From positions 1 through 64,000 of the forward strand of contig CAMAZF010000009.1 in assembly GCA_945862985.1 (NCBI GenBank): a stretch of DNA of 64,000 bases, read 5' to 3'. Below, in pieces: positions 26,435-42,547 of this stretch. The notes beneath the pieces are model-generated. The model had not been told where the DNA came from. It worked only from the letters and a program-made list of their open reading frames with translations, and made no database searches. This DNA comes from Bordetella parapertussis (lineage in GTDB: Bacteria; Pseudomonadota; Gammaproteobacteria; Burkholderiales; Burkholderiaceae_A). The position numbers were made by a program, and so were the translations under genes. Within the stretch, counting starts at the first letter, position 1, and each line of letters starts with the position of its first letter.

Positions 26435-26435
26435 G

Positions 26436-27497
26436 TCAGTGGTCTCCTTGCGATGGGGGATCAAACAAAAGGGTATGTCCGGGATTCAACCCGAGAGTCA
26501 ATTGGGCGCCGGAGGAGAGTGAAGCATCGTTCTCCGTGGTCCTCACCCGGAACAACTCGGTGAGCCCGTCGATCTGAAGGTGCAGAATGCTTGACTCTCC
26601 CAGGTGCTCGGCCATTGCCACCCGAGCTGGTATTCCGCCCCCCTTGGGGTTCACCGTTACATGCTCAGCGCGGACAGCGGCGAGCTGCTCCGATGGCTTC
26701 GTCTTGAGTCCCTGAATGAGGGAGGCCCATAGCTGCTGGTGGGCTGACGATGCACCCTGGTCGGGGGAGCGCACCACATTGATCTTTGGGGTGCCCAAAA
26801 ATTCAGCCACGAAAAGGCTGTTGGGGCGGTTGTAGAGGTCCAGTGGAGATCCCAGTTGCTCAATACGACCGTCTCGCATCACAGCAATTCGGTCGCCAAG
26901 CGTCATGGCTTCTACCTGGTCATGGGTGACATAGACCATCGTGGTTTTGAGTTCCTGGTGCAGTCTAGCCAGCTCAATTCGCATGTCGGTTCGAAGTGAA
27001 GCATCCAAGTTGGAGAGTGGCTCGTCGAAGAGGAAAACGCGGGGCTTTCTGACAATGGCTCGCCCAATCGCAACCCGCTGTCGCTGACCTCCAGATAGAT
27101 GTTTAGGGTAGCGACCCAGTAACTCGGAGATTCGAAGGGCCTGAGCAGCTTCGTGAACTGCCTGTTCCCGTTCCTTGCGCGCCACGCCGGCCATCTTCAA
27201 TGCAAAACCCATGTTCTCAAACACGGTCATGTGGGGGTAGAGCGCGTAGTTCTGAAAGACCATCGCTGCACCGCGATCAGCGGGGTGAACGTCGTTCATC
27301 CGCTCGTCATCGATGAAAAGATCGCCGCCGCTGATGTCCTCAAGCCCCGCAATCATGCGAAGCAGCGTGGACTTTCCACATCCTGAAGGTCCCACCAGAA
27401 TCAAGAACTCCCCTTGGTGGATATCGAGATCAATCCCTCGGATGACCTCCTGTTGGCCGTAACGCTTCACCAGGCCGCGAAGACTCAGCTGGCCCAT
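26436..27497 (-). CDS. Sugar ABC transporter ATP-binding protein (UgpC/MalK type)
   Basis: This is the ATPase of a carbohydrate importer. The 353 residues include Walker A GPSGCGKST (36-44), Q-loop VFQNYALYPHMTV, signature LSGGQRQR, Walker B VFLFDEPLSNLD, the switch histidine in VTHDQVEAMTLGDR, and a C-terminal regulatory (TOBE/MOP) domain like that of MalK/UgpC. Such ATPases often serve several sugar permeases. The ATG chosen gives the family start (MGQLSLRGLVKRYG); the frame is open a further 16 codons into the GH1 gene. It stands between the GH1 and GH16 genes. Confidence 0.94.
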   Translation of the reverse strand: MGQLSLRGLVKRYGQQEVIRGIDLDIHQGEFLILVGPSGCGKSTLLRMIAGLEDISGGDLFIDDERMNDVHPADRGAAMVFQNYALYPHMTVFENMGFALKMAGVARKEREQAVHEAAQALRISELLGRYPKHLSGGQRQRVAIGRAIVRKPRVFLFDEPLSNLDASLRTDMRIELARLHQELKTTMVYVTHDQVEAMTLGDRIAVMRDGRIEQLGSPLDLYNRPNSLFVAEFLGTPKINVVRSPDQGASSAHQQLWASLIQGLKTKPSEQLAAVRAEHVTVNPKGGGIPARVAMAEHLGESSILHLQIDGLTELFRVRTTENDASLSSGAQLTLGLNPGHTLLFDPPSQGDH

Positions 27498-27501
27498 CAC
27501 G

Positions 27502-28857
27502 TTAGGCGCTTCGCTTGGACTGATGAAACACCCGGGCGGACTCAAGAAAGTCCCGGTACCAAATAGCGCTGGTCTTAGGGGTGCGCTTCAGTGTGTTGTA
27601 GTCCACGTGGACAATTCCGAATCGCTTTTCATAGCCACTGGCCCACTCAAAGTTGTCCATGAGGCTCCAGACCATATAGCCAGTGACACGAACGCCTTGC
27701 TCCATGGCGTGAGCGACGGCTTGAATATGGGTACGCAGGTAGTCAAGCCTGTCGAGATCGTGCACTTGTCCGTTGACCTGCGGATCTTTGAATGCACCAC
27801 CGTTCTCCGTGATGATGATGTCTGGCAGGTTGTAATCTCGATGAAGTAAGAGCAATAGATCGGTGAGGCCCTTGGGGTATACCTCCCAGCCCATCTCGGT
27901 GAGAGGCAGCCCGAGGGATTTTAGATCGACGGGACCACTCGCGCTCGATACCTGGCGGGTGTAGTAGTTCACGCCGAGATAGTCGATGGGGGTGGCAATG
28001 ATCGCCATATCTCCCGCCTGGATGACGGGTGCGTCATCACCCAATTCATCGAGCACCTCCTGGGGGTAGTGGCCTTTGAACAGGGGGTCCGCATACCAGC
28101 GGCGCCCCTTGGCGTCACCCATATGGGCACTTGCCACATCGGCAGAGTCATTCGATGCCGGCTCAATCGGCGAGAGGTTTAATACGATGCCAAGAGGCAA
28201 GCGACAGCCAGCCTCACGGAGTGCACGCACGGCCATACCATGGCTCAACAGCAGGTGATGAGACACCTGTATGGCCACACGACGATCCTGAATACCCGGG
28301 GCGAAGATACCAGTCTCATGCCCGAGCACGGCCATCACCCAGGGCTCATTGTGGGTGGTGATGGCAGCGACTCGGCTGCCCAGCCTTGCATAGACCCCGA
28401 GCGCATATCCCACAAAGTGATCCACGGTATCGCGAGACGCCCAGCCGCCACGATCCTGCAAGTGTTGAGGGAGGTCCCAATGGTTCAGGGTGAGGTGGGG
28501 TTCAATGCCGCGTGCACGAAGCCCGTCGACGAGGCGCTCGTAGAAGGAGAGGCCTGATTCGTTCCAGTCCCCCACACCCAGTGGCTGCACACGTGGCCAG
28601 GAAATGGAGAAGCGATAGGCATTCACGCCAAGTGAGGCGATGAGGTCAAGGTCCTCATCCAAGCGGTGATAGTGGTCGCATGCGATGTCACCATTGCTGT
28701 GGTCTGCAATGGCCCCGGGTTTGCGACAGAAACGATCCCAAATGGACTCTCCTTTGCCGGATTCCTTTGCTGCGCCCTCAATTTGAAACGCACTGGTTGC
28801 GACGCCCCAAATGAACTCAGGCGGAAATTGGGTAGAGAGCTTGAGATCTTCAAACAT
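27502..28857 (-). CDS. Glycoside hydrolase family 1 beta-glucosidase
   Basis: This cytoplasmic enzyme releases glucose from beta-glucosides, laminaribiose or cellobiose. The 451-residue length is typical. The N-terminal FIWGVATSAFQIEG signature is present, with the acid/base Glu171 in THNEP (usually TFNEP/TLNEP) and nucleophile Glu351 in ITENGG. There is no signal peptide, so it acts on imported substrate. It lies in the ABC importer operon. Specificity between beta-glucosides and other beta-glycosides (for example galactosides) cannot be read from sequence. Confidence 0.95.
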   Translation of the reverse strand: MFEDLKLSTQFPPEFIWGVATSAFQIEGAAKESGKGESIWDRFCRKPGAIADHSNGDIACDHYHRLDEDLDLIASLGVNAYRFSISWPRVQPLGVGDWNESGLSFYERLVDGLRARGIEPHLTLNHWDLPQHLQDRGGWASRDTVDHFVGYALGVYARLGSRVAAITTHNEPWVMAVLGHETGIFAPGIQDRRVAIQVSHHLLLSHGMAVRALREAGCRLPLGIVLNLSPIEPASNDSADVASAHMGDAKGRRWYADPLFKGHYPQEVLDELGDDAPVIQAGDMAIIATPIDYLGVNYYTRQVSSASGPVDLKSLGLPLTEMGWEVYPKGLTDLLLLLHRDYNLPDIIITENGGAFKDPQVNGQVHDLDRLDYLRTHIQAVAHAMEQGVRVTGYMVWSLMDNFEWASGYEKRFGIVHVDYNTLKRTPKTSAIWYRDFLESARVFHQSKRSA

Positions 28858-28881: not shown

Positions 28882-29706
28882 TCACTTCACGGCGCCCGAG
28901 GTTAAGCCGGCAATCAATTGGCGAGAGAAAATGACGAACAAGATCAGCAGCGGGATAGTGGCAATCGCTGAACCCGCCATAAGGGCGCCCCACTCGGTAT
29001 TCACGGGCGATTGGAGGCTTCTTAACGCCAGCGGCAGGGTGTAATTCTCTACGCTGCGCATCACCACCAGCGGGCTCATGAAGTTATTCCATGACGCAAT
29101 GAACGTCACCAGGCCGAGGGTTCCCAAGGCAGGTCTGAGCAGGGGGATCACAATCCGCCAGAAGATTCCGAATTCTCCGCAGCCATCCATACGGGCAGCC
29201 TCAATGAGTTCACGAGGTATCGAGGAGATCGCGAACTGGCGCATGAGGAAGATCCCAAAGGCGCTCGCTGCACCTGGGATGTAAAGGGCCCGGTGTTCGT
29301 CAATCCAGCCGAAGGCGTCCATGATCATAAAAGTGGGAATCATGTTCATGAAGGTGGGCAACAACATGGTGGACATGACCAGCGCGAACAGTGCCTTCTT
29401 GTAGCGAAACTCCATGAGCGCAAAGGCGTACCCTGCCATGGAGCAAAACAGCAGCGTCAATGCGGTAGAAGCCAACGCGACGTAAATACTCCAGCCAAGG
29501 TTCCGCCAGAAAGGAAGACGCTCTGTGAGGATCTCGAGATTCGTCAGAAAGTGTGTGCCAAACCAGTACGGAGGAGGGAGATCAAAAATATCGGCTCGAG
29601 AGTGAGTGGCGAAAACAAACATGAAGTAAAAGGGCGCAAGCATGACCAAGCATCCAACCCCAACCGTGCTGTAGGCGCCGGCTTTGGACATGGTTTGAAT
29701 GTTCAC
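28882..29706 (-). CDS. Sugar ABC transporter permease (MalG/LacG type)
   Basis: This inner-membrane permease of 274 residues has six spans and the EAA loop LIEAARMDGCGEFGIFWRIV that docks to the ATPase. The ending (RQLIAGLTSGAVK) is characteristic of the MalG-like second permease. A GTG at 29706 is preferred as start because GAGGAG lies eight bases before it and it begins immediately after the upstream permease stop; ATG at 29691 is the alternative. Confidence 0.93.
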   Translation of the reverse strand: MNIQTMSKAGAYSTVGVGCLVMLAPFYFMFVFATHSRADIFDLPPPYWFGTHFLTNLEILTERLPFWRNLGWSIYVALASTALTLLFCSMAGYAFALMEFRYKKALFALVMSTMLLPTFMNMIPTFMIMDAFGWIDEHRALYIPGAASAFGIFLMRQFAISSIPRELIEAARMDGCGEFGIFWRIVIPLLRPALGTLGLVTFIASWNNFMSPLVVMRSVENYTLPLALRSLQSPVNTEWGALMAGSAIATIPLLILFVIFSRQLIAGLTSGAVK

Positions 29707-30633
29707 CTAGTGGGCTCCTCGTGCGGGCTGATCGTCTCGGTCGCGAAACGCGCGACTCATCAGGTAGGTCAACCCCGCCACCACCAAGAAGAGCAACCAA
29801 GACATGGCACTGGCTCCACCAAAGTCATTGAAGTCAAAGGCCATGCGATAGAGGTACAAAGCGGCAGTCATTCCGGCTTGGTCTGAGCCGCCACTGCCAC
29901 CTGTCAAAATGAAGGGCTCCTCAAAGAGCTGCAATCCGCCGATGAGGCTCAAGGTTAAACCGAAGAACATCATTGGCTTTAGGCTCGGGATGGTGATGTA
30001 CCAGAACTGTTGCCACGACGATGCACCATCAATGGTCGCTGCCTCGTAGAGATCTCGAGGGATGGACTGAAGTGCAGCCAAGTAAAGCACTACGTTGAAG
30101 CCGACAAATCGCCAGAACACCACAAAGGCGATTGCGGGCTTGATGGTGCTCGGGTCATTCAACCAGTCGATAGGCAGGATTCCCATCACCGACCGCAGGG
30201 CGCTATTGATCATGCCGAATTCAGTCGAAAAGAGAGCGCTGAACATGATGGAGATGGCGACCGTGGAGGTGATGTAGGGCACGAAGTAGGCCGCCATGAC
30301 ACCATTTCGAAGTCGTCGAAAAGCGGAGTGAATGAAGACGGCTAATGGGATCGCCACCAGGTGCTGTGGAACCCCCGAAGCGACCGCGAGCCAGGCAGTA
30401 TTTCCGAGTGACTTCCAGAACCATTCGTCTTGGATGGAGAACAGGAAGTTCTCCCAGCCGACAAACTCCATATAGGCGAGGCCGCTGGTGGGCTCCCACG
30501 ACTGGAAAGCTAAGTAGAGCGAGAACAGAAGCGGAAACAGCCCAAAAACCATAAACAGAATCAGAAAGGGGCTGATAAATACGTACGGGGCTACCCTCGG
30601 AGACAGTCGAATCTGGCGTCGGGTGATATTCAT
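29707..30633 (-). CDS. Sugar ABC transporter permease (MalF/LacF type)
   Basis: This is the first permease of the importer, 308 residues, with six spans and the EAA loop LYEAATIDGASSWQQFWYITIP. The N-terminal SPRVAPYVFISPFLILF is typical of the MalF/LacF/UgpA group. The ATG is two bases after the solute-binding protein stop. Together with the MalG-like permease it forms the translocation channel. Confidence 0.93.
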   Translation of the reverse strand: MNITRRQIRLSPRVAPYVFISPFLILFMVFGLFPLLFSLYLAFQSWEPTSGLAYMEFVGWENFLFSIQDEWFWKSLGNTAWLAVASGVPQHLVAIPLAVFIHSAFRRLRNGVMAAYFVPYITSTVAISIMFSALFSTEFGMINSALRSVMGILPIDWLNDPSTIKPAIAFVVFWRFVGFNVVLYLAALQSIPRDLYEAATIDGASSWQQFWYITIPSLKPMMFFGLTLSLIGGLQLFEEPFILTGGSGGSDQAGMTAALYLYRMAFDFNDFGGASAMSWLLFLVVAGLTYLMSRAFRDRDDQPARGAH

Positions 30634-30635: not shown

Positions 30636-31922
30636 CTAGCGCCTTGCCCTTCGCTCAATCAGTCTTTGCGCATCGGCCAGAGCCCTGTCAATGCTCTTGC
30701 GATTCCCCAACACGTTGTCGAGCTCAATGTTGATGACTTCCTCTGCAAACTTCGACTGCTTGTGGACTTGAGTTGCTGTGATTTGGCGGGCCGCATCCCG
30801 CCAGAGGAGTCGGGCTGGCTGGCCGCCCAGAAAATCAATCGGCGCTTCGAAGAAAGGGTCTCGGTGGGTTTCAGCCAGCGCGGGAAAAGCGTCTTGAGAC
30901 TTAAAGGCCTCGAGCTGCAGCTGCGCATCCAAGGTCAGCATTTGAATAAAGGCCCAGGCAAGCAGCTTATTCTGTTCTTGGGCCCGTCTGGGGATGGCAT
31001 AGAAGGTGCCGCCATAGTCCACGAAAGTGCGTTCGGGCAGGTGCCCCACTCGCCAGAGTCCCTTTGTAGAGGGCGCAACCCAGTTCGACATCTGGCCGAC
31101 CATCCACGCTCCCGTGAGGTCGGTCGCAATGGTGCCTCTTCGAAACCCCTCTGCCCACTCGTTTGACCATGAATTGACGCGGGCGTCCAGCCCGAGGCGG
31201 CGTACCTCTCGAGCGAGCTCAAAGGCCCGCCGAAACCGAGGGGACTCGACGTTGGCTTGAGACTGAGCGTCAAAATACAGCCCGTCGCCGGGCTGAAGGC
31301 CAACCCTGATGAGAATGTCCTTGACCGTTCGCGCGTTGCCGACCAAAAAGGCGCCTGTGGACCCCTTGATCCGTCGGCCAGCGGCTACATAGCCCTCCCA
31401 TGTGTTTGAGAGATCGGCAGGTGTGAGGCCTGATCTTCTGAGCAGGTCCTGTCTGTAGAGCATGGTGCCGGGGCCAATATCTGTGGGAACGGCAATCCGT
31501 TCATTGCGTTGATTCAGGGTCTGTCCGTAGGCGTACGGCACAAACCGCTCCGCAAGCGCATCGATGTTGTAGGGGGGCTTCGAGAGGTCTTCAAGTCCAA
31601 AGCCGTGGGAGAAGCGCCCCACGTAGCTTGCCTCTAGCGCCATCACATCCGGGAGTCGCACACTCGTCGAGAGCGCGGTGGTCATCGCGGTGTGATGATC
31701 GGCATATTGACGACTGACCAAGTCAACCTGAACCTGCGGAAAGGCCTCACGGAATCGGGGTAGCGCAGATCTGACAATCTCGTCCACCAAAGGAAATGCT
31801 GCAACGGTGATGCGTCTGCTGGTAGACCCCTGTGGCCAGGCCTGTGATGCCAGACCAAGCCCGGCTGAACTGGTCAGGCCCATCAAGAGTTGACGTCGCT
31901 GTCCGTGTGGGGTGTGCGTCAT
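30636..31922 (-). CDS. Sugar ABC transporter substrate-binding protein
   Basis: This is the extracellular solute-binding protein (family 1) of the importer, 428 residues. It has an N-terminal RRQLLMG motif that looks like a twin-arginine signal, cut near AWPQGS. The rest has the usual two-lobed pattern (DVMALEASYVGRFS, GPGTMLYRQDLL, WEGYVAAGRRIKG, GTIATDLTGAWMVG). It is the first gene of the operon and has a strong promoter and LacI-type operator directly upstream. From its companions (GH1, GH16) it probably binds beta-gluco-oligosaccharides; that is inference. Confidence 0.9.
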   Translation of the reverse strand: MTHTPHGQRRQLLMGLTSSAGLGLASQAWPQGSTSRRITVAAFPLVDEIVRSALPRFREAFPQVQVDLVSRQYADHHTAMTTALSTSVRLPDVMALEASYVGRFSHGFGLEDLSKPPYNIDALAERFVPYAYGQTLNQRNERIAVPTDIGPGTMLYRQDLLRRSGLTPADLSNTWEGYVAAGRRIKGSTGAFLVGNARTVKDILIRVGLQPGDGLYFDAQSQANVESPRFRRAFELAREVRRLGLDARVNSWSNEWAEGFRRGTIATDLTGAWMVGQMSNWVAPSTKGLWRVGHLPERTFVDYGGTFYAIPRRAQEQNKLLAWAFIQMLTLDAQLQLEAFKSQDAFPALAETHRDPFFEAPIDFLGGQPARLLWRDAARQITATQVHKQSKFAEEVINIELDNVLGNRKSIDRALADAQRLIERRARR

Positions 31923-32008: not shown

Positions 32009-33052
32009 TCAGGCGGAGGTCGATTCGCGTGCGATGACCTTGGGACCAGGCAGTTGAAGGCTGGGTTTCTCTCCGCGAAGAAGCCCGAGAATGGCAGAGG
32101 CTGCGCATTGGCCAAGCTCATATGCAGGGTGGTGAATGGTGCTGAGGGGCGGGGTGCTGTAGCGAGAGATCGAAAGGTCGTCAAAGCCCATGACAGCAAC
32201 GTCCCCGGGAATCAGAAGGCCCCGACGGTGGAGTGCAAGGCAGGCGCCAAGCGCCATCTGATCATTGGCTGCAAACAGAGCAGTGAATCGCCGGCGTGTA
32301 TCGAGCAGCCGCTCAGTCGCGAGTAGGCCGCTTTCCTCGTGAAACAACCCCTGCCCAATGAGTTCTGGGTCGAAGGCAATACCAGCCTCCGCCAGCGCGG
32401 ACTGGTAGCCCTTCAGCCGCTCGTTTGCATCGGGGTGCTCTGCGTTGCCGGCGATAAAGGCGATGCGCCGATGCCCAAGTGAAATGAGGTGTTGTGTCGC
32501 TAACCTTGCACCGAGCTGGTTGTCAAAGTGCAAGCTAAAAAGGTTTGGTGCCTTCAGCGATCGTCCTGTGGCAACCACCGGAAGCTGCTTGGCCGTGGCC
32601 TTGAGTGCGGCATCACTCAGCCGGCCTGTCAGCACAATAATTCCGTCGACGCGCCGAGACCGGAGCATGTCTATGCAGCGAGCCTCCTCCGAGGCATTCC
32701 AGTGTCCGCTGACAAAAAGAGGGCTGTATCCGGCTCGATCGAGTTCGTCTTCAATTCCTCGAAGTGCGACACCGTAGAACGGACTGTCGATTGCCTGGGT
32801 GACCACACCAATGCTGAGTGTGCGGCCACCGGCCAAGCCGCGCGCCATGGGATTGGGCACAAACCCGAGCTTGGCGATGGCCTCATGAACCGCTTTACTT
32901 TTGCTTTCATGGACCGCTGCCGTGCCGTTGAGGATTCGCGAGACAGTGCTGGAAGAGACCCCTGCCGCTTTCGCCACCATGGAGAGTGTGACCGGGCCGG
33001 TGTCTTTGGATGACGGGGCAGGGCGAGGAGCGGACGCACGACGATTGGGCAT
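32009..33052 (-). CDS. LacI family transcriptional regulator
   Basis: This repressor-type regulator of 347 residues has an N-terminal helix-turn-helix and hinge (TLSMVAKAAGVSSSTVSRIL to NPMARGLAGG, about 23-75). A periplasmic-binding-protein-like effector domain follows (IGVVTQAIDSPFYG, GIIVLTGRLSD, GHRRIAFIAGN, ALFAANDQMALG, GFDDLSIS). It sits between the importer operon and the divergent receptor gene, and operators for a LacI-type protein lie before both, so it most likely controls both arms in response to a sugar. The frame is open for 50 codons upstream but those residues are not family-like. The ATG used has no strong ribosome site. Confidence 0.92.
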   Translation of the reverse strand: MPNRRASAPRPAPSSKDTGPVTLSMVAKAAGVSSSTVSRILNGTAAVHESKSKAVHEAIAKLGFVPNPMARGLAGGRTLSIGVVTQAIDSPFYGVALRGIEDELDRAGYSPLFVSGHWNASEEARCIDMLRSRRVDGIIVLTGRLSDAALKATAKQLPVVATGRSLKAPNLFSLHFDNQLGARLATQHLISLGHRRIAFIAGNAEHPDANERLKGYQSALAEAGIAFDPELIGQGLFHEESGLLATERLLDTRRRFTALFAANDQMALGACLALHRRGLLIPGDVAVMGFDDLSISRYSTPPLSTIHHPAYELGQCAASAILGLLRGEKPSLQLPGPKVIARESTSA

Positions 33053-33208
33053 GGCTTTGAATGGAGCAGTGGCTGTGATGAGGAGTTTAGGGGTAAACCA
33101 GAGCGCAATGTCGCTTGGTCCTAAACCTTGACCGGCTGGCGCTGGTTCCGGCCATTTTGTTCGACATGGGGGAATTAGATCTAGGGTTTCTACGGGCGGC
33201 ATAGGTCC

Positions 33209-33331: not shown

Positions 33332-36304
33332 ATGCGATCAGTCCCAAACCCCGGCACACGTCGCTTCAAACTGAAGCCGCTCGTTGCTGCCTGTGGTCTT
33401 CTCTTCGGCTCAATGTCCGTTATGGCGCAAGAGGCGAAGAAAGAGGAGCCACCCCCAGCGGCCTCAGTGACCGTGATCGGGATCAAAAGCAGCCTTGACA
33501 CCTCGCTGAATCTCAAACGGGACGCTCGGGGTCTTGTTGATGGAATTGTGGCCGAGGATATTGGTAAGTTTCCAGACACGAACCTGGCCGAATCGCTCAG
33601 TCGGGTGAGTGGTGTTTCTGTCGAACGTAACAACGGCGAGGGGACGCGCATCACGGTTCGTGGCATGGGTCCGGACTTCAACTTGGTCCTGCTCAACGGG
33701 CGCCAGATGCCGGGATCAAGCTTCGATGGCGGGGCGCCCAGCTCTCGCTCGTTTGACTTTTCAAACCTTGCGGCTGACGGTGTGGCTGCGCTGGAGGTCT
33801 ACAAAACCAGCCGCGCAGACAGTCCTACTGGGGGAATGGGCGCAACTGTGAATGTGCGCACCCAGCGGCCCTTTGATATCAAGGAGACCGTTGCTCAGTT
33901 CGGTGTGAAGATGGTAAACGACGAGACCGCCCGTAATGTTCCGCTCGAACAGCAGGGCAAGGCTCTCACGCCCGAACTAAGCGGTATCTACAGCACCCAG
34001 TCTAACGATGGCACCTTTGGCATATCGCTCATGGGTACTTATCAGGTTCGGGACTCGGGTTACTCTCAGGCCGCTGTCACCAGCGGCTGGAAAACCTTCA
34101 GCGGCGTGACCGATAACGATTGGGGCGGTCCCAACCCCGCATGGGGTGGCCTGCCTCCCGCATCTTGGAATGCGATCAAGAATCGCCCTGCGCCAGACTC
34201 AATTTACAGCGTGCCCCAGAATTTGAACTACTCGTTCACAGGGGTGCATCGTGAACGCCTGAACGGTCAGGCGGTTCTTCAGCTCAAGCCAACCAACGAT
34301 ATGGTGGCAACACTCGACTTCGTGATGTCTGAGCAGCGGTTCCGCCAGCGCAGAAACGACATTTCTGCATGGTTTAACTACGGCGGCCAGTTTGGTGAGT
34401 ACCAGACTGGTTCACCCTCGTCGCCCGTCATTTACGGTGAGACCATGTCGAATTCAGACGTGGCCATGGGTGGCTCCTCGATTCAGACGAAGGTTCGAAA
34501 CCAGCAGATTGGTCTGAACCTGAAGTGGAAGCCCAGTAATGCATTGAACTTTGACTTTGATATGCACCGATCTTCTGCCACCTCTGGTGCGGACGGTCCT
34601 TTGGGGACGAGCGTCGTTTTGGGCACAGCCTCCCTCAACCGTGGAGATACCTATGTGGACTTCAGCAACAAGTTCCCGGTTCTGAATATCAAAGGCGGAA
34701 CGCTTGATCCAGCTCTGCAAGAGCTACAGGGCTCAGTGTTTAGCAACAGCTATCAGAGAAACGAAGTCAGCCAGGCCCAGGCCAAGGGCACCTGGAAGTT
34801 CAGTCCAGACTCAAGCCTTGATTTTGGACTCTCCTTGACCGAGGTGGATAACCGCTCTGCATTTGCCAATGTGCAGCGTGACACGTGGGGTGGTGGAGCA
34901 GCGGGCGGTCCCGCGGCAATGCCGGACAACATCTGGCGTGCAGATTCGATTGGCCGCTATTTCAGTAGCATCCCTGGGTCAAGTGATCCGCGTCTATTCA
35001 ACCAGTATTTTGGATTCAAGTTTGAGGATGCTCGTGATGCGGCCATCCAGATCCTTGGCTCCGACGAGCTCTTGAAAGCCTCGTTCGATTTTAAGGATGA
35101 CTACCGCACCACCGAAAAATCTCAGTCTCTCTATGGGCAGGTTAACCATTCATGGGAGTGGGAAGTTCCGATGGATATCTCGGTTGGCGTGCGCTACGAG
35201 AGAACGCGTGTCGTTTCGCCCAGCGTGGAGTCGGTTCCAACGGAGGTGCGCTGGGTTGCAGACAACGAGCTTCCTGTGATTTTCAGTGGCACGACCTCCG
35301 CATCTCGGAAAGGGCAATACTCCTACTTACTACCCTCTATCGACTGGAGCGCAGATCTCAATCGAGACACCAAGCTTCGAGTGAGCCATGGAAAGACGAT
35401 TGGTCGGCCAGGTTGGAGTGCCATTCAGGGAGGTCGAACCCTCAATGGACTGGCGCGAATCGATGGCGGAACTGGCTCCGTGGGAAATCCGGATCTTGAT
35501 CCTCTTGAGTCGAAGAACTGGGATTTGGCCTTGGAGCATTACTACGCGAAGAGCAGCTACGTCGCGGCGAGCTACTTCACCAAATCAATCGAGAATTACA
35601 ACGCGCCCATTATTGCCCCGCAGACCGTTCCTGGCCTGACAACGCCGATTGGTGGTGCGTATTATCAGCAGGCCATCCAGATGGGTGGATGTGCGGCAAA
35701 TGATTCTGGCTGTATTCGCCAATACATCTTCGCGAACTTGGCCGGTGCGCCTGGGGTAGACGTAGCTGCTCGAACCATTACCGGGCAGCCTGGCGACCCG
35801 CTGTTGGTGTTTCAGCTTGGCACGTTCCAGAACAATGAGCGCACCAGCAAGATTCGCGGTCTAGAGTTCAATCTCCAGCACATCTTTGGGAACACCGGCT
35901 ACGGTGTGGCGGCGAATTTCACAAAGGTGCGGTCTGACCTGAGCTATGACAACAACAAGGCTGGGGCACAGTCAGATGTGTTGGTCGGGCTTGGAGATTC
36001 CGGGAACCTTGTGGGCTTCTATGAGCAAGCAGATTTCAGCACTCGTGTCGCTTACAACTGGAGAGGTAAATACCTCGTGGCGAATTTCGGTGGCCTCGAG
36101 GGCGCACAGCCTCTCTATGTGGAGCCCTATGGGCAGGTTGATCTGGGTGTTGGCTATAACATCAACAAGAACCTTCGGCTGACTTTTGATGCAATTAACC
36201 TCACCGATTCATACGTGCGCACCCACATGCGAAACGAGAATCAGATTGGCTCGGTGACGCAGTTGGGTCGTCGATTCGTGTTCGGAGGACGCTGGAAGTT
36301 TTAA
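33332..36304 (+). CDS. TonB-dependent receptor, TIGR01782-like carbohydrate type
   Basis: This outer-membrane active transporter of 990 residues has a signal peptide (cut near VMAQEA), a possible TonB box (SVTVIGIK, about 46-53), a plug domain with EDIGKFPDTNLAESLSRVSG and RITVRGMGPDFNLVLLNGR, and a long beta-barrel. It ends in the aromatic residue of RRFVFGGRWKF, as expected for insertion by the Bam machinery. The plug wording matches the TIGR01782 (Xanthomonas-Caulobacter) family, usually tied to sugar polymer use rather than iron. Two operators upstream link it to the LacI regulator, and its likely ligand is a glucan oligomer (inference). It is followed by a hairpin and the halogenase-like genes. 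Confidence 0.95.
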   Translation: MRSVPNPGTRRFKLKPLVAACGLLFGSMSVMAQEAKKEEPPPAASVTVIGIKSSLDTSLNLKRDARGLVDGIVAEDIGKFPDTNLAESLSRVSGVSVERNNGEGTRITVRGMGPDFNLVLLNGRQMPGSSFDGGAPSSRSFDFSNLAADGVAALEVYKTSRADSPTGGMGATVNVRTQRPFDIKETVAQFGVKMVNDETARNVPLEQQGKALTPELSGIYSTQSNDGTFGISLMGTYQVRDSGYSQAAVTSGWKTFSGVTDNDWGGPNPAWGGLPPASWNAIKNRPAPDSIYSVPQNLNYSFTGVHRERLNGQAVLQLKPTNDMVATLDFVMSEQRFRQRRNDISAWFNYGGQFGEYQTGSPSSPVIYGETMSNSDVAMGGSSIQTKVRNQQIGLNLKWKPSNALNFDFDMHRSSATSGADGPLGTSVVLGTASLNRGDTYVDFSNKFPVLNIKGGTLDPALQELQGSVFSNSYQRNEVSQAQAKGTWKFSPDSSLDFGLSLTEVDNRSAFANVQRDTWGGGAAGGPAAMPDNIWRADSIGRYFSSIPGSSDPRLFNQYFGFKFEDARDAAIQILGSDELLKASFDFKDDYRTTEKSQSLYGQVNHSWEWEVPMDISVGVRYERTRVVSPSVESVPTEVRWVADNELPVIFSGTTSASRKGQYSYLLPSIDWSADLNRDTKLRVSHGKTIGRPGWSAIQGGRTLNGLARIDGGTGSVGNPDLDPLESKNWDLALEHYYAKSSYVAASYFTKSIENYNAPIIAPQTVPGLTTPIGGAYYQQAIQMGGCAANDSGCIRQYIFANLAGAPGVDVAARTITGQPGDPLLVFQLGTFQNNERTSKIRGLEFNLQHIFGNTGYGVAANFTKVRSDLSYDNNKAGAQSDVLVGLGDSGNLVGFYEQADFSTRVAYNWRGKYLVANFGGLEGAQPLYVEPYGQVDLGVGYNINKNLRLTFDAINLTDSYVRTHMRNENQIGSVTQLGRRFVFGGRWKF

Positions 36305-36311
36305 GTGGTTC

Positions 36312-36340
36312 TGGGGATTGGCTCGAGTGGCCAGTCCCCA
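36312..36340 (+). other. Intercistronic hairpin after the TonB receptor gene
   Basis: TGGGGATTGGC (36312-36322) pairs with GCCAGTCCCCA (36330-36340) through an 11-base stem with one T-G pair and a seven-base loop. No T-run follows, so it is more likely an mRNA-processing or partial-termination element that sets the receptor above the downstream genes than a full terminator. Confidence 0.5.
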
Positions 36341-36376
36341 AGCGACCCGTCTTAAGTCTGATTGGAGGTTTTCGCG

Positions 36377-37909
36377 TTGGATCAACGAATCACCGACATT
36401 CTCGTGATGGGAGGTGGTTCATCGGGTTGGCTCGTCGCAAGCCTCCTTGCGGCGGATCACCCAGAACTCTCGATTACGCTCGTCGAGTCTGATGAGACTC
36501 CCATCATTGGCGTGGGCGAGGGTACCTGGCCCTCCATGCGAGACACGCTGAGGCGCATTGGGCTCTCTGAGACGGCTTTCATCCAGCGTTGTCAGGCCAC
36601 CTTCAAGCAGGGCTCCCGATTTGATTCATGGATGTTAGGCGAGCCGGGCGCGGGGGGTGACCGCTACTACCACCCCTTTATGCTCCCCACCGATGGGGAC
36701 GATATAGATTGGGTGCAGGCGTGGATGAGACTGCAAGGAGATCGGCCATTTGCCGACGTCGTCTGCCCCTCGGTTCGGTTGTGCGAAGCGGGACGAGCGC
36801 CAAAGCAGCTTCAGACCCCAGAGTTTGCATCCGTGGCGAACTATGGTTACCACTTCGATGCCGTGCAATTTGGGCAGATGCTGCGTGAGCACGCCTGTCA
36901 GGTGCTACAGGTCCGGCATGTGGTGGATCACGTTGAAGAGGTCGTGACTTCAGGCTCCGGCGACATCGCTGCACTTCGAACTCGAGTCCACGGTCTTCTT
37001 GGTGCAGATTTATTTGTAGACTGCTCGGGCCTGGCCGCACGGCTGATTGGCCAGCACTTCGCAGTTCCTCTGAAGAGTCAGGCAGCGTGTTTGTTCAATA
37101 ACGCAGCATTGGCAATTCAGGTGCCGTATCAGCACCGCGATGCGCCATTGGCCACTTGCACCATTGCCACAGCTTGGTCAAAGGGCTGGTTGTGGGATAT
37201 TGGACTGCAGGGCAGGCGGGGTGTTGGTTGCGTATTCTCTCTCGATCACGCCAGCGAAGATGAGGCGCATGCAGCGCTCGTCACTTACCTCGAGGCTACG
37301 GGTGCTCCCAGCGAGAGAGGAGCACCAAGATTGATTCGATTCGATCCAGGCTATCGCGAGCGGTTTTGGGTGCGAAATTGTGTAGCGATTGGGCTCTCGG
37401 CGGGGTTCATTGAGCCATTAGAGGCCTCCGCACTCGCCCTGGTGGAGATGTCTGCTCAGCGTGTGTCTGACGAGCTACCCATGACCCGAAGCGGGATGGA
37501 CACAGTTTCGCGGCGCTTTAACGAGGACTTTAGCTATCGATGGTCCCGCGTGATTGACTTTCTCAAGTTGCATTACATCCTTTCTCAGAGGCAGGACAGC
37601 GAATACTGGATGCGGCATCGAGATCCTGCCAGTTGGACTGATCGGCTTAAAGAGCTACTTCCCCTCTGGAAACTACGCTCCCCGGCGCGCCACGATTTCG
37701 GCAGAATCGACGAAGTGTTTCCTTCGGCCAGTTACCAATATGTTCTCTATGGCATGGGTTTTCGGCCCGAGGTGACTGCGCTCAGCCCGGGCGAGCTGGC
37801 GAAGGCCGAGGCTTGCTTGCAGGAGTCTGCGAGGGTGGCCCAACGGCTCCTTGCAGGATTGCCCGGTCACCGCAGCCTCATTCATTTATTGACGCAGACA
37901 CCCTCATGA
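36377..37909 (+). CDS. Flavin-dependent tryptophan-halogenase-like protein (first copy)
   Basis: This 510-residue flavoprotein belongs to the PrnA/RebH superfamily. The FAD-binding GGGSSGW (12-18) and the VGVGEGTWPS loop are present, as is the lysine (Lys77 in TFKQG) at the position that forms the lysine chloramine in halogenases, and the FIEPLEAS segment with the partner glutamate. The diagnostic WxWxIP motif reads WLWDIG here (271-276), so the proline is replaced. Start: TTG at 36377 has a GGAGG site eight bases before it. Whether it halogenates anything is not known; related genes are repeatedly found next to sugar TonB receptors. It overlaps the SapC gene as ATGA. Confidence 0.88.
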   Translation: MDQRITDILVMGGGSSGWLVASLLAADHPELSITLVESDETPIIGVGEGTWPSMRDTLRRIGLSETAFIQRCQATFKQGSRFDSWMLGEPGAGGDRYYHPFMLPTDGDDIDWVQAWMRLQGDRPFADVVCPSVRLCEAGRAPKQLQTPEFASVANYGYHFDAVQFGQMLREHACQVLQVRHVVDHVEEVVTSGSGDIAALRTRVHGLLGADLFVDCSGLAARLIGQHFAVPLKSQAACLFNNAALAIQVPYQHRDAPLATCTIATAWSKGWLWDIGLQGRRGVGCVFSLDHASEDEAHAALVTYLEATGAPSERGAPRLIRFDPGYRERFWVRNCVAIGLSAGFIEPLEASALALVEMSAQRVSDELPMTRSGMDTVSRRFNEDFSYRWSRVIDFLKLHYILSQRQDSEYWMRHRDPASWTDRLKELLPLWKLRSPARHDFGRIDEVFPSASYQYVLYGMGFRPEVTALSPGELAKAEACLQESARVAQRLLAGLPGHRSLIHLLTQTPS

Positions 37910-38616
37910 CTCAGTACACCCAGCTGGATAACGTCCGACACCGAGACATTCGTATTCGAACGGAGAGATCTGCCTCGCTCGGCGATGCCCGTCATTTCAG
38001 CCTCGCGCTGCCTGGCGAGTTCCGTCACTTGCAAGCCCATTTTCCAATTGTGTTTCAGCATGTGGAGGGTGAGTCGGGCTTTCAGCCCATTGCTTTGTTC
38101 GGTTTGGAGGAGGGACAGAACCTCTATTTGACCGAGGGGGGGTGGGATGCCACGGTCGTTCCCATGGCGCTTCAGCGCGAGCCCTTCGCCATTGGCCGAG
38201 CCCCTGATGACTCGCTACAGCTGCACATCGACCTTCAGAGTCCGCGTGTCGTTCAAACGGAGGGGGGTGAGGAGGGCACGGCGCTTTTTTTGCCACATGG
38301 TGGATTTAGCGAGTACCTTGAGCAGGTCGTGAAGCTCATGGAGGAACTCCATGCACAGGCTCAGCAATTGCCATTTTTCATTGAGGCACTCAAGCGGCAT
38401 CAGCTGTTGGAACCTTTTGTGCTCGACATTGAAATGCCCAGTGGTGAGCATTCCCGCATGACTGGCCTGTTTACGGTGAATGAAGATCGTCTGGCTAGCC
38501 TCTCGGGAGCAGACCTTGAGACCCTCTCGAAAGAGGGGCACCTCCTCCCCATTTATATGCAGATGGCCTCGCTCGCGCAGCTACCTGGCCTTCTACATCG
38601 CCATGTAAGGCGTTAA
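37906..38616 (+). CDS. SapC family protein
   Basis: This soluble-looking 236-residue protein resembles the SapC family (PF07277), first noted near Campylobacter S-layer genes. Typical features are the N-terminal SLALPGEFRHLQAHFPIVF segment, the central GWDATVVPMALQREPFAIG stretch, the LFLPHGGFSEYLEQVVKLME region and a C-terminal LLPIYMQMASLAQLPGLLHR. There is no signal peptide or membrane span. In many Proteobacteria such genes accompany TonB receptors and tryptophan-halogenase-like genes. No activity is established. Confidence 0.82.
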   Translation: MTQYTQLDNVRHRDIRIRTERSASLGDARHFSLALPGEFRHLQAHFPIVFQHVEGESGFQPIALFGLEEGQNLYLTEGGWDATVVPMALQREPFAIGRAPDDSLQLHIDLQSPRVVQTEGGEEGTALFLPHGGFSEYLEQVVKLMEELHAQAQQLPFFIEALKRHQLLEPFVLDIEMPSGEHSRMTGLFTVNEDRLASLSGADLETLSKEGHLLPIYMQMASLAQLPGLLHRHVRR

Positions 38617-38623
38617 TCAGATC

Positions 38624-39634
38624 ATGCGTGACGTACCGGTGTGGTCTGGGGAGGTCGACGTCACAGACCTGCCGCATGCGTTGCTCTCGGCTCAGAGGCC
38701 GTATGTGCTTCGCGGTGCCTTCTCCTCCTGGGCTGTGGTCCAGGCCGCCCGTCAGTCAGATCTTGCCTTGGCGCAATACCTGATGAGCTTTTACAACGGC
38801 ATTCGTGTCACGCTTTTTGAATTACCTCCCACAGAACACGGACGGGTTTTCTATTCAGACGAATCTCTCACAGGATTCAATTTCACCCGGCATGCGGCAA
38901 CGCTTGACCAGGTGCTTTCGGGTCTGCTCGGTTTAGCCGAGACCAGCCAAGAAGGGCCGGCACTTTATGTGGGGTCCACCACCGTTGAGGCGGTTCTGCC
39001 AGGTTTCCTGAATGCCAATCCGTTTGGCCTTGGAACGCGCGACGCCTTGGTGAGTTTATGGTTGGGAAATCGAACGCGTATCGCGGCGCACTATGATTTG
39101 CCTGACAACCTTGCAGTTGTGGCCAGTGGTCGACGTCGGTTCACGCTGTTCGCCCCAGAGCAGATTCACAACCTCTACATGGGACCCCTCGATCCAACGC
39201 CCGCTGGCCAGCCGATCAGTCTGGTGGATTTTGTGAATCCCGATCTCAAGCGATTCCCTCGGTTTGAGCAGGCGTGGTCTGCTGCTGAGCAGGTCGAACT
39301 CGAGCCGGGAGATGCGATCTTCATTCCGAGTATGTGGTTTCACCACATAGAGGCCTTAGGCGCGGTGAATCTTTTGATCAATGCATGGTGGCGTCGTTTG
39401 CCAGCTTACGTTGATTCACCCCTGAGTGCACTGCGATTGGCGCTGATGACCCTGCGCCATCTACCAGACCACGAGCGCGAAATTTGGAGTCGGCACTTCC
39501 AATATTTTGTATTTGAGGGAGCAGATTCCCAGTGGGAGCACATTCCAGAGCGCGCGAGGGGTCTGTTGGGTGCATTGGATGAGACGGTTTTGAGGCAGGG
39601 CAGGCTGGATCTTTTAAATAAACTGAATCGGTGA
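38624..39634 (+). CDS. Cupin-like/JmjC-domain protein
   Basis: The 336-residue product has a JmjC-type cupin (PF13621-like). The iron ligands of the facial triad appear as HxD (His156, Asp158 in AAHYDLPDN) and a distal histidine in PSMWFHHIEAL (about 240). GDAIFIPSMWFH is the usual strand. It is therefore a candidate 2-oxoglutarate/Fe(II) hydroxylase of a protein or small molecule. It stands between SapC and the second halogenase-like gene, seven and nine bases from them, in the receptor operon. The substrate is unknown; a role in modifying the receptor or an envelope partner is speculation. Confidence 0.84.
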   Translation: MRDVPVWSGEVDVTDLPHALLSAQRPYVLRGAFSSWAVVQAARQSDLALAQYLMSFYNGIRVTLFELPPTEHGRVFYSDESLTGFNFTRHAATLDQVLSGLLGLAETSQEGPALYVGSTTVEAVLPGFLNANPFGLGTRDALVSLWLGNRTRIAAHYDLPDNLAVVASGRRRFTLFAPEQIHNLYMGPLDPTPAGQPISLVDFVNPDLKRFPRFEQAWSAAEQVELEPGDAIFIPSMWFHHIEALGAVNLLINAWWRRLPAYVDSPLSALRLALMTLRHLPDHEREIWSRHFQYFVFEGADSQWEHIPERARGLLGALDETVLRQGRLDLLNKLNR

Positions 39635-39643
39635 TCGAGGACT

Positions 39644-41161
39644 ATGAACGCAATCAATCGTGTGGTAATCGCGGGCGGTGGAACGGCAGGCTGGATGATG
39701 GCTGCGCTGATGAGCAAGCTGCTTGGAAACGGCTTGTCAATCACCTTGGTTGAGTCAGAGGAGCTTGGTACGGTTGGCGTTGGCGAGGCCACGATCCCAG
39801 CCTTGCTGACCTTTCACAATCTGCTCGGCATCAATGAGGCAGAGTTCATGGCCGAGACCAATGCAACCTTCAAGCTCGGGATTAATTTCGAGGGATGGAA
39901 GAATGTGGGGGAAGATTACTTCCATTCATTCGGGTCCACCGGAAACGATCACTGGAGTGCTGGGTTTCAGCACTTCTGGCTCAAAGGCAGAGCATCGGGG
40001 TTGGCGCAGACCTACACCGACTACAACCCGGAGACGGTCGCGGCTTTTTCAAACCGATTTGCCCACGTTCAGAACAATGGACTGAACTATGCCTACCACC
40101 TGGACGCAGGTCGTTATGCCGCTTACTTGAGAAGGATGAGTGAGTCGCATGGCGTTCGACGTGTGGAGGGAAAGATCGCCCAGGTTCTCAAGCACGAGAA
40201 CCAGGCTGAACCCAATAAAGTCGGAGATATCTGCGCTCTGCAAATGGAAGATGGCAGCCGAATTGAGGGGGACTTATTCGTTGACTGCACCGGTTTTCGT
40301 TCCTTGCTCCTAGGTCAAGCGCTTGGAGTGGGTTATGAGGACTGGTCCTACTGGCTACCCTGTGATCGTGCTGTAGCTGTTCAGACGACCTCTGTGCGGG
40401 AGGCTTGGCCTTATACCCGTTCCATTGCACATCCTTTCGGTTGGCAATGGAGAATTCCGCTTCAGCATCGAGTCGGAAATGGGATGGTCTATAGCAGTCG
40501 TGAGTTAAGCGATGCAGATGCGCCAGATATGTTGGCTCGAAACGTGGAGGGGGAACTCATCACCAAGCCTCGCCTGATTAAATTTACACCCGGTCAGCGA
40601 GAAAAGGTGTGGGAGCGGAATTGCATCGCGGTTGGGTTGGCTAGTGGATTTGTTGAGCCATTGGAGTCGACGAGCATTCACCTGATTCAACGATCAGCCA
40701 TACGGCTTATGCAGCTTTTCCCAAGAACAGGCATTCAACAAGCGGACATTGATGAATTTAATCTGCAGTCCAAACGGGAGCTCGAGCATATTCGCGATTT
40801 TATTGTGCTGCACTATCACGTGAACGAGCGAACCGATTCGGCGCTATGGAAGCATGTGAGGGAAATGTCGATTCTTCCTAGCCTGCGTCATCGGATTGAT
40901 CTATTCAAAGAGAGCGCGAGGGTTTTTCGGCCCAGCGATGAGCTGTTTGCGGAAAACTCGTGGGTCCAAGTCATGATGGGGCAGGGCATTCTTCCCAAAA
41001 GCTATCACCCTGTAGCAGACCTGATGGGACGAGAGGAGTTACAGCGTTTCTTGACCGACATACAGATGCGAGTCAAGCGGCTCGTCACCGCGTTGCCTGC
41101 TCACCAGTCCTATGTACATCAGCTGTGTGCTCCCTATCGCTTGGTAGCGGAGACCGTGTGA
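39644..41161 (+). CDS. Flavin-dependent tryptophan-halogenase-like protein (second copy)
   Basis: This 505-residue paralogue of the gene at 36377 is closer to canonical halogenases: FAD motif GGGTAGW (11-17), VGVGEATIPAL, Lys77 in TFKLGINFEGW, complete WQWRIP (267-272), and FVEPLESTSIHLIQ with the partner glutamate. A flavin reductase partner, needed by true two-component halogenases, is not present nearby. The gene ends the receptor-linked set; its stop overlaps the next gene. Alternatives to halogenation (other flavin oxidations) remain open. Confidence 0.9.
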   Translation: MNAINRVVIAGGGTAGWMMAALMSKLLGNGLSITLVESEELGTVGVGEATIPALLTFHNLLGINEAEFMAETNATFKLGINFEGWKNVGEDYFHSFGSTGNDHWSAGFQHFWLKGRASGLAQTYTDYNPETVAAFSNRFAHVQNNGLNYAYHLDAGRYAAYLRRMSESHGVRRVEGKIAQVLKHENQAEPNKVGDICALQMEDGSRIEGDLFVDCTGFRSLLLGQALGVGYEDWSYWLPCDRAVAVQTTSVREAWPYTRSIAHPFGWQWRIPLQHRVGNGMVYSSRELSDADAPDMLARNVEGELITKPRLIKFTPGQREKVWERNCIAVGLASGFVEPLESTSIHLIQRSAIRLMQLFPRTGIQQADIDEFNLQSKRELEHIRDFIVLHYHVNERTDSALWKHVREMSILPSLRHRIDLFKESARVFRPSDELFAENSWVQVMMGQGILPKSYHPVADLMGREELQRFLTDIQMRVKRLVTALPAHQSYVHQLCAPYRLVAETV

Positions 41162-41571
41162 GCGGGGCATCTGCTCAGCCCACAATGCTTCATGGAAGTT
41201 GCCTCTGCGGAAAGGCTCGCTATCGGGTCGAGGATGCCTTTCGGTATGCATTGAATTGTCACTGTGGACAATGTCGCCGCGCAACGGGATCCGCATTCAA
41301 GGCCTTTGCTGGGATTGAGCGGTCAAAGTTTCACATCGCCCGGGAGACTTCGCTGATGCTGTTTGGTCTCGAGGATCAAAACCACGACGCCCGTTGCCGG
41401 ACCTGTGGATCACTTCTTTACTCTGTGGTTCGTGGCGGTGAGTATGTTCACGTCACGCTTGGCACCCTTATCGATCCGCCATCGCTTCTCCCTACGGCAC
41501 ATATTTTTGTCGGCTCAAAGGCCTCGTGGTACGAGATTCTAGATTCCCTTCCGCAGCATTCGGAGTTTTAG
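41158..41571 (+). CDS. GFA/CENP-V family zinc-binding protein
   Basis: The 137-residue product has the zinc ligands of the GFA (glutathione-dependent formaldehyde-activating enzyme-like) fold: GSCLCGKARY, NCHCGQCRRATGS and CRTCGSLLYS. Most GFA-like proteins have no proven reaction, and the original formaldehyde/glutathione activity has been questioned. A GTG overlapping the halogenase stop is taken as start; ATG at 41185 would also give the full domain. It may be transcribed with the receptor operon but is probably a separate function. Confidence 0.85.
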   Translation: MSGASAQPTMLHGSCLCGKARYRVEDAFRYALNCHCGQCRRATGSAFKAFAGIERSKFHIARETSLMLFGLEDQNHDARCRTCGSLLYSVVRGGEYVHVTLGTLIDPPSLLPTAHIFVGSKASWYEILDSLPQHSEF

Positions 41572-42544: not shown

Positions 42545-42547
42545 TCC

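Follow-up and report, generated by a model that had tools for sequence, protein, structure and literature searches.

A flavoprotein, SapC and cupin cassette that appears dedicated to one clade of TonB-dependent glycan receptors, with the receptor chain as a tentative target

Two halogenase-like flavoproteins enclose a SapC protein and a JmjC-type cupin behind a sugar TonB receptor of Bordetella parapertussis, which raises the question of why such enzymes accompany a nutrient receptor and on what they act. A sequence-only reading of the window (the whole stretch of 64,000 nucleotides analysed here) had given the order receptor, flavoprotein (H1), SapC, cupin, flavoprotein (H2) on one strand. 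All five genes were indeed found, all on the forward strand, with WLWDIG in H1 and WQWRIP in H2 exactly as described. The features of the locus are:

25589..26464, - strand: GH16 glycoside hydrolase, beta-glucanase type (PF00722, 6.9e-21)
26436..27545, - strand: ABC transporter ATPase with TOBE_2, sugar importer type (PF00005, PF08402)
27502..28857, - strand: GH1 beta-glucosidase-type enzyme (PF00232, 1.1e-159)
28882..30633, - strand: two ABC permeases (28882-29706 and 29707-30633; PF00528 in each)
30636..31922, - strand: extracellular solute-binding protein (PF01547, 6.2e-12)
32009..33202, - strand: LacI-family regulator, divergent from the receptor (PF00356, PF13377)
33332..36304, + strand: TonB-dependent receptor, 990 aa (TIGR01782, 577 bits, cut-off 310)
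34370..34372, + strand: codon of receptor Trp347, candidate site by conservation and by its place at the end of strand 324-347 (translation DISAWFNYGGQ)
36312..36340, + strand: 12-pair mRNA hairpin between receptor and H1 (folding z -2.4 in one test, -3.2 in another)
36377..37909, + strand: H1, divergent Trp_halogenase-family flavoprotein; Lys77, WLWDIG, Glu349, numbered from TTG 36377 (PF04820, 2.4e-110, 370 bits)
37906..38616, + strand: SapC, 236 aa (PF07277, 2.8e-64, 217 bits, cut-off 28.9)
38624..39634, + strand: Cupin_8/JmjC protein, FIH-like; His156, Asp158, His240 (PF13621, 3.1e-61, 208 bits)
39644..41161, + strand: H2, flavin-dependent halogenase-type protein; Lys77, WQWRIP, Glu341 (PF04820, 2.1e-183, 611 bits)

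The best start of H1 is probably TTG 36377, because GGAGG lies 8 nt upstream and because the alignment starts at residue 6 or later of the longer frame (TTG 36362) in 67 of the 80 relatives. Counted from this codon, the lysine of H1 is Lys77, the number it had been given before. The receptor stop lies 57 nt from the longer frame and 72 nt from TTG 36377, the former figure agreeing with the earlier claim of gaps of 57 bases or less; H1 and SapC overlap by 4 nt, and gaps of 7 and 9 nt separate SapC from the cupin and the cupin from H2. The sugar-locus setting was also borne out by the GH16, GH1, ABC sugar importer and LacI genes alongside: judged by its enzymes, the uptake locus appears to be of beta-glucan type, and the receptor is predicted to import a plant- or algal-type sugar polymer. 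As had been noted, no flavin-reductase family matched among the scanned window proteins, and the sole match to PF01613 in the whole genome lies on a contig other than that of the cassette. A scan for sigma-70 sites across the module returned 2, versus 3.7 expected.

This arrangement is not a one-off local one, since its gene order recurs in many other genomes. The five genes stand in identical order at 42 of 80 H1 loci, and a receptor is present at 76 of them. The order is kept in records titled Burkholderiales, Lysobacterales and Alteromonadales-type genera, and is rearranged in Sphingomonas. In the genome under study, all three Trp_halogenase matches lie in gene runs directly behind its only two TIGR01782 receptors over cut-off. 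Thus, the clustering of such genes with TIGR01782-like receptors, which had been put forward as known, recurs in many other genomes, and the association came through a neighbourhood survey that could have broken it (survey loci carried 1.5 kb flanks, so that neighbours farther off were missed; the class survey scored the best few candidates per genome, five for PF04820 and three for TIGR01782). Halogenase, SapC and ‘Pass1’ genes have reportedly been recorded beside TonB receptors in the sugar-uptake (CUT) loci of Xanthomonas as well. Neither a full-length halogenase nor a receptor above the cut-off occurred in any of 25 family relatives, which suggests that the cassette genes were gained; composition gives no sign of it, and a visible composition island was rejected because the GC content of the cassette blocks (0.55-0.56 in blocks 32001 to 44000) stays within the range of the whole window (0.55-0.60).

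Distances between SapC proteins correlate with those between the adjoining receptors (r 0.80; none of 999 permutations as high), and the same holds for H1 (r 0.67), the cupin (0.82) and H2 (0.87), with none of 299 permutations as high for each. Within one genome the correlation persists for SapC (r 0.73, 22 pairs); for H2 it is -0.33 over only four pairs, which counts against a dedicated cassette. For none of 24 SapC proteins from genomes with two or more copies did the closest SapC come from the same genome; by these comparisons, the SapC copies of a multi-receptor genome are distinct and divergent, and follow the receptor and not the genome. The comparisons show a cassette that, whole or in part, keeps its place beside the receptor, diversifies with it and, where a genome has several such receptors, is present in several divergent copies, each next to its own receptor. 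No other gene seems to have this role: the commonest flank cluster was found at 25 of 106 loci, so that the cassette appears to accompany the receptor rather than any other flank gene found common to most loci. We therefore regard it as very probable that H1, SapC, cupin and H2 form an accessory cassette whose dedicated partner is a single clade of TonB receptors for glycan uptake. Against our reading, SapC itself frequently occurs without halogenases, as only 9 of 49 class-survey SapC matches could be placed in such sets; upstream of stand-alone SapC genes, several open reading frames yielded no name.

The glycans concerned bear on what the enzymes might act upon. Beta-glucan-type enzymes were found at 43 of 72 loci with H1 and SapC, and GH43 at four (loci lacking the set were taken with less flanking sequence than the 80 H1 loci, which depresses their enzyme counts). 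Of the targets proposed earlier, the receptor itself or something in its vicinity stands as a reasonable suggestion. The case for an aromatic ligand cap is weaker, because the set, though found mostly alongside beta-glucan-type enzymes, is in some cases accompanied by GH43. Indeed, the locus imports a glycan and such enzymes oxidise aromatics; however, flavin halogenases require electron-rich rings, and beta-1,3-glucan, indicated at many loci, has to our knowledge no aromatic groups, so that the ligand itself, say an imported oligosaccharide with aromatic caps, seems a highly improbable substrate.

Both flavoproteins match PF04820 over their whole length (cut-off 21). Among H2 homologues, the catalytic Lys is kept in 76 of 77 and Glu in 75 of 77, the FAD motif GGGxxGW in about 75 of 77 (the remainder being gaps), and the Pro of WxWxIP in 75 of 77. 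Among H1 homologues, Lys and Glu are each present in 88 of 88 and GGGxxGW in 85 of 88 (again with gaps in the remainder), and WxWxIP is replaced by WxWDI[G/A] (Gly in 81, Ala in 7 of 88), for which reason H1 is not filed as a halogenase. The Fx.Px.Sx.G motif (PMC7336383) is altered in both, with Ala at the Gly position in 83 of 88 H1 and, as in BrvH, Ser in 67 of 77 H2. Both alignments show the catalytic residues of flavin-dependent oxygenases/halogenases to be retained. The idea that H1 had simply lost its function is not supported, since WxWDI[G/A] is the rule in 88 H1 proteins, in which Lys, Glu and the FAD motif persist; decay of this copy was rejected on its catalytic residues (88/88) and conserved motif. 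These same features argue for H1 as a separate conserved subfamily of enzymes, whose chemistry is possibly different.

The cupin matches JmjC_2 with 21.9 bits, slightly below the cut-off of 22. Its closest solved structure is the JmjC asparaginyl hydroxylase FIH (4.4e-18), which aligns over 124 residues, HxD...H included, and leaves the N-terminal part of the cupin unmatched. The metal triad His156, Asp158 and His240 is present in 74 of 74 cupins, and the catalytic residues of FIH-type iron/2-oxoglutarate hydroxylases are thus shown by alignment to be retained, in a putative enzyme for which we know of no substrate in common with FIH. For SapC, the AlphaFold2 model is of high confidence (pLDDT 96), and no solved fold was found (best Foldseek E 0.16; no Z of at least 2 among 1000 chains).

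PrnA, RebH, PyrH and Thal, which act on free tryptophan, share the PF04820 superfamily and the catalytic Lys and Glu with H1 and H2 but are far weaker matches (about 200-250 bits) than the closest solved relatives. For H1, these are 2pyx (annotated as ‘tryptophan halogenase’, and presumably from Shewanella), 9ltb and 9lu2, with 505, 464 and 416 bits; they show WDIG or WDIA and EASA or EATG in alignment with H1, and we know of no function for any of them. H2 aligns over its full length with Xcc4156 of Xanthomonas campestris (6y1w, its closest, 669 bits) and BrvH of Brevundimonas (6frl, 435 bits), and has Lys, Glu and WxWxIP in common with both. A rival explanation follows from these relatives, namely that the substrate of H1, H2 and the cupin is a small molecule of indole or phenol type (a signal, an antibiotic or a deterrent), which the cell makes during glycan feeding and which these enzymes halogenate or hydroxylate, the receptor being only co-regulated. 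Consistent with this, both BrvH and Xcc4156, the nearest studied relatives of H2, take indole-type compounds in vitro, Xcc4156 halogenating indole derivatives, and BrvH also adjoins a second, different halogenase, as stated in the available parts of the two reports (PMC5945002, PMC7336383). In the ESTS loop, H2 has Ser like BrvH, and Xcc4156 has Asn (available part of PMC7336383). However, BrvH does not accept free tryptophan and is slow on indole, which its authors doubt to be the substrate; in those sections of the reports, the native substrate is established neither for BrvH (PMC5945002) nor for Xcc4156 (PMC7336383). Furthermore, no biosynthetic core enzyme appeared among the flank families listed (in three of the scans, 25 of 36, 60 and 56), and divergent per-genome copies that follow receptors would be unexpected for a shared metabolite. 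We consider a small-molecule substrate quite unlikely.

Flavin enzymes acting on ribosomally made peptides or proteins do have precedents, in QhpG, a peptidyl-tryptophan hydroxylase, and in SrpI. The likeness is one of work: against the QhpG peptidyl-Trp monooxygenase model, H1 and H2 score 37.8 and 27.7 bits, below the cut-off of 240. A RiPP cluster would need a precursor-peptide gene, and the gaps inside the set (at most 9 nt, and 72 nt between receptor and H1) are too small to hold one. SrpI is a RiPP brominase, and takes structured peptides according to the available part of its description (PMC10858898). Neither PMC5945002 nor PMC8269204 uses the word TonB or SapC in its main text, and TonB is likewise absent from that of PMC7336383. 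Among the matches listed, a literature search gave no title that brings together halogenase, TonB receptor and SapC, and none on the Xanthomonas CUT loci with such genes.

Action of the cassette on the receptor chain falls just short of an even chance in our judgement, as does the fuller proposal of a receptor-dedicated oxidative cassette that modifies this chain before export, with Trp347 as first candidate. H1, SapC, cupin and H2, which seem to lack signal peptides, would act in the cytoplasm, and their substrate would be the unfolded receptor chain prior to export. SapC would serve as the holder of this chain and the cupin as the hydroxylase of a side chain; an aromatic residue, possibly Trp347 at the predicted extracellular rim, would be oxidised or halogenated by H1, H2 or both, with a general flavin reductase supplying them. 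More tentatively, a glycan receptor may gain a halogenated or hydroxylated rim tryptophan (Trp347), and possibly a second hydroxylated residue, via its own cassette, in which two flavin enzymes, one with a changed WxWxIP, would work with an FIH-like hydroxylase and with SapC as receptor-specific holder.

Trp347 was singled out as follows. The AlphaFold2 model of the receptor (pLDDT 89) has the TonB-transporter fold, and places Trp347 at the end of strand 324-347, on the predicted extracellular rim. Where H1 or SapC adjoins, 117 of 118 receptors have this isolated Trp, versus 10 of 83 others, in a count that used 201 of 214 receptors (13 under 400 bits being left out). The two second receptors that lie past a set already paired with a receptor (L130, L136) were reclassified as non-associated before the Trp counts and tree tests; a cupin alone was taken as association in the column-diagnostic count and in the first tree test, and not in the 201-receptor count. 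Receptors fetched after the Trp had been noticed gave 18 of 18 with H1 or SapC alongside versus 0 of 11 others. In 90 cassette receptors, no other column between 329 and 394 is invariant, although this one was picked out of many and Arg967 and others are nearly as diagnostic. One receptor (L282) has Phe at this position though H1 adjoins. Among the 10 other receptors with Trp, one (L269) is a close paralogue, about 8 kb apart, of a cassette receptor (L246), one (L207) stands next to a cupin gene, one comes from locus L123 as its second receptor, and the remaining seven are distant (414-501 bits).

Nevertheless, Trp347 tracks receptor phylogeny, association changing just 7 times on the tree. 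Of six supported independent pairs, approximately 2.0 went the same way, 0.24 the opposite way and 3.8 without any difference (sign test, p 0.5), and the Trp347-cassette association is thus not significant on the tree, because the tree holds too few independent changes. This non-significance is compatible with another explanation, in which Trp347 is a sugar-stacking residue of the receptor clade and the cassette targets another envelope protein or a regulator of the same uptake pathway. A rim position would suit such a residue, and a shared ligand could account for a shared Trp, as beta-glucan-type enzymes stand at 43 of the 72 loci. However, the Trp is also found at 12 of 12 SapC loci without H1 in view and at the four H1 and SapC loci with GH43, and it is the receptor, not another gene found common to most loci (25 of 106 at most), that accompanies the set. 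On balance, we hold this explanation unlikely; that Trp347 is the modification site seems itself rather doubtful. Where H2 stands alone, the Trp was found in 0 of 15 receptors in a later, larger alignment versus 2 of 7 in the first one, and from this the Trp347 column is judged to be alignment-dependent in distant receptors; H2-only loci would need a different target.

Should the receptor be the substrate, this would represent a new kind of post-translational modification for outer-membrane transporters, which might bear on the selectivity of glycan receptors; SapC, a family for which no solved fold was found here, would gain a role in a modification system serving nutrient receptors. Structures and assays of Xcc4156/BrvH-type enzymes have been obtained without establishing a native substrate, according to the available parts of PMC7336383 and PMC5945002. 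The link to a receptor clade, together with one named residue, turns this native-substrate question into a mass-spectrometry experiment.

Finally, the gap that holds the mRNA hairpin between receptor and H1 was compared across loci: this receptor-to-set gap folds with a z under -2, relative to shuffled sequences, at 83 of 97 loci. Such better-than-shuffled folding fits an arrangement in which many receptors are served by few enzyme copies.

The window lies on contig C9 of a 2.17 Mb genome in 60 contigs, and in it the receptor, H1, SapC, cupin and H2 genes all run in the same direction:

33332-36304, + strand, TonB receptor of the TIGR01782 family
36312-36340, between receptor and H1, 12-pair hairpin
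36377-37909, + strand, H1, divergent Trp_halogenase-family (PF04820) flavoprotein
37906-38616, + strand, SapC
38624-39634, + strand, FIH-like cupin (Cupin_8/JmjC)
39644-41161, + strand, H2, halogenase-type flavoprotein

On the opposite strand, divergent from the receptor, lie a LacI regulator, a sugar-binding protein, two permeases, GH1, an ABC ATPase and GH16. GH16 and GH1 together with a sugar importer make this a beta-glucan type of locus, the glycan of which may be laminarin. A second locus of the same genome, L014 on contig C8, has the gene content of an alpha-glucan locus:

first genes: PfkB kinase, RpiR-type regulator, cyclomaltodextrinase-type GH13, esterase, TIGR01782 receptor
further genes: H2-type halogenase directly behind the receptor, pullulanase-type protein, binding protein, two permeases, another GH13

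This locus holds one H2-type halogenase, without H1, SapC or cupin. Apart from the receptors of the window and L014, the genome has no TIGR01782 member over the cut-off, and its only three Trp_halogenase matches all lie behind these two. The 25 other genomes of the family lack a full-length Trp_halogenase, and no TIGR01782 receptor in them exceeds the cut-off, the weak matches staying below 28 and 77 bits, respectively. Receptors and halogenases were thus gained, or retained, together. The single PF01613 flavin reductase of the genome is encoded on a different contig from the window.

The same arrangement recurs widely. A species-genome collection was scanned with H1 as query, which biases the sample, and from 561 confirmed stretches the best 80 were kept. 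A receptor of the same family was found in 76 of these 80 H1 loci; in the other four (L093, L099, L121 and L146), H1 starts at most 1.8 kb from the end of the sequence stretch. SapC was present in 71, the cupin in 65 and H2 in 57 of the 80, and 42 displayed the order receptor-H1-SapC-cupin-H2 on a single strand. Variants include Sphingomonas loci in which SapC and cupin face away from receptor-H1, Pseudoalteromonas and Colwellia loci with H1 and H2 and without SapC, and some Alteromonadales-type loci without H2 or without the cupin. In Colwellia maritima (L131), receptor and H2 lie in several fragments within one record, pointing to decay or sequencing errors.

A class survey was also made on an even draw of 274 genomes, in which the best five PF04820 candidates per genome were scored, so that its counts are lower bounds. 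At least 27 PF04820 places reached at least 350 bits, of which 18 adjoin a cassette-family receptor, eight do not and one is at a contig end (lower bounds likewise). Two of these eight (L190, on contig C50 of genome G192) lie within a complete H1-SapC-cupin-H2 set; a TonB receptor lies approximately 3.4 kb from this set and is not of the cassette-receptor type. At L193, L194 and L190, the set is adjoined by a second, oppositely oriented Cupin_8 gene. In 26 of 29 SapC loci of the survey (L025-L053), neither a halogenase nor a cassette-type receptor was found within 1.5 kb flanks; neighbours in this group include PPIC-type isomerases (L026, L049), malic enzyme (L042, L050) and FecR (L051).

A receptor-dedicated oxidative cassette is the best-supported reading of these loci. 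Distances among the set proteins follow those among the adjoining receptors (Mantel r: SapC 0.80, H1 0.67, cupin 0.82, H2 0.87), although such a correlation alone is weak evidence, because operon mates have a common history. More telling are genomes with several such receptors: their SapC copies are approximately 35% identical (median), and within-genome SapC distances still track receptor distances (r 0.73, 22 pairs; for H2, r is −0.33 from only four pairs). The nearest relative was in the same genome for 0 of 24 SapC, 0 of 18 cupins, 2 of 17 H1 and 0 of 8 H2. Several divergent copies per genome are what a partner to a particular receptor would look like. The enzymes might instead make a small-molecule product, but a common metabolite, or a general housekeeping role, would need a single copy.

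Judged by their sequences, H1 and H2 are two separate groups. All 88 H1 proteins keep the catalytic Lys and Glu, and the FAD motif is kept; the WxWxIP position reads WxWDIG in 81 and WxWDIA in seven, and the halide-loop motif EST(S) has become EAS(A). The Pro of WxWxIP is kept in 75 of 77 H2 proteins. The motif difference between H1 and H2 noticed in the sequence-only reading thus marks a subfamily. The closest solved structures are 2pyx, 9ltb and 9lu2 for H1, and Xcc4156, 9luq and BrvH for H2. BrvH and Xcc4156 are reported to be active on indole-type compounds, not on free tryptophan, with native substrates unknown (PMC5945002; PMC7336383), and a second halogenase with 42.7% identity to BrvH lies upstream of it (PMC5945002). 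For the cupin, FIH is the closest relative among solved structures, and His156, Asp158 and His240 are kept in 74 of 74 relatives. Comparison of the confident predicted model of SapC (pLDDT 96) found no solved relative; its His12 and Glu38 do not vary across 81 sequences. The N-termini of all four set proteins leave no room for a signal peptide, so these proteins should be cytoplasmic.

From this dedication, the enzyme types and a conserved Trp of the receptor (Trp347), we infer that the cassette works on the receptor chain; that Trp347 is the modification site would be a guess. There is a precedent for flavin halogenases acting on ribosomal peptides (PMC10858898). In an alignment of 104 receptors, the Trp347 column is W in 80 of the 82 that have H1 or SapC nearby (the two exceptions being second receptors beyond the set), in 2 of 7 with H2 only and in 0 of 15 without set genes. 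Twelve cassette-owner genomes each encode between 3 and 38 receptors of this kind, and 90 receptor places added from them gave 185 realigned receptors, with the following counts.

Trp at the Trp347 column, by set genes in view (185 receptors)
H1 and SapC: 76 of 78
SapC without H1: 12 of 12
H1 without SapC: 11 of 12
cupin only: 1 of 1
H2 only: 0 of 15
none: 9 of 67

In a last batch of 29 new receptors, picked for their resemblance to cassette receptors once the Trp was known, W was found in 18 of 18 with H1 or SapC versus 0 of 11 without; for receptors of middling likeness (580-800 bits), the counts were 9 of 9 versus 1 of 16. Across 90 cassette receptors, no column between residues 329 and 394 other than that of Trp347 is invariant. 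In the predicted model, Trp347 ends a long strand (324-347) rising from a two-residue turn, and the shortness of this turn, of periplasmic type, would place it at the extracellular rim. The tree shows just seven changes of the association (independent-pairs p 0.5), so common descent may account for the pattern, and other columns, e.g. Arg967, are almost as diagnostic. At L282 of Cellvibrio mixtus (genome G303), H1 immediately follows a receptor from a different clade that has Phe at the Trp347 column, a useful natural exception.

Alternatively, Trp347 could be a plain sugar-binding residue and the cassette have another target, for which the glycan context leaves room. Flank proteins were grouped into clusters, each identified through a single representative. 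One or more beta-glucan-type clusters (GH3, GH16, GH1, GH30, GH81, GH94 or GH149) occurred in 43 of 72 H1+SapC loci, 5 of 6 loci with H1 but no SapC and 2 of 7 H2-only loci; none occurred in the 2 SapC loci lacking H1 or in the 11 receptor loci lacking the set, whose flanks are shorter. GH13 occurred in 5 of 7 H2-only loci and GH43 in 4 of 72 H1+SapC loci; GH18, GH95, GH115 and GH127 were also present in the scanned flanks. Accordingly, the full set is mostly, though not exclusively, a beta-glucan companion.

The component families are each already known, and such genes have been recorded beside Xanthomonas sugar receptors. Among the literature matches listed, from a library with few subscription journals, no title concerned the whole cassette as belonging to one receptor clade; its function is possibly new.

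Hairpins like that of the window are frequent between receptor and set. Among 97 distinct receptor-to-set gaps, 83 fold better than shuffles (z < −2), 83 contain a stem of at least nine pairs and 70 show four or more T within the 12 bases surrounding the point where the longest stem ends. Partial termination or processing at this hairpin would yield abundant receptor and little enzyme, as would befit catalysts; hairpins of this kind are also common behind other genes.
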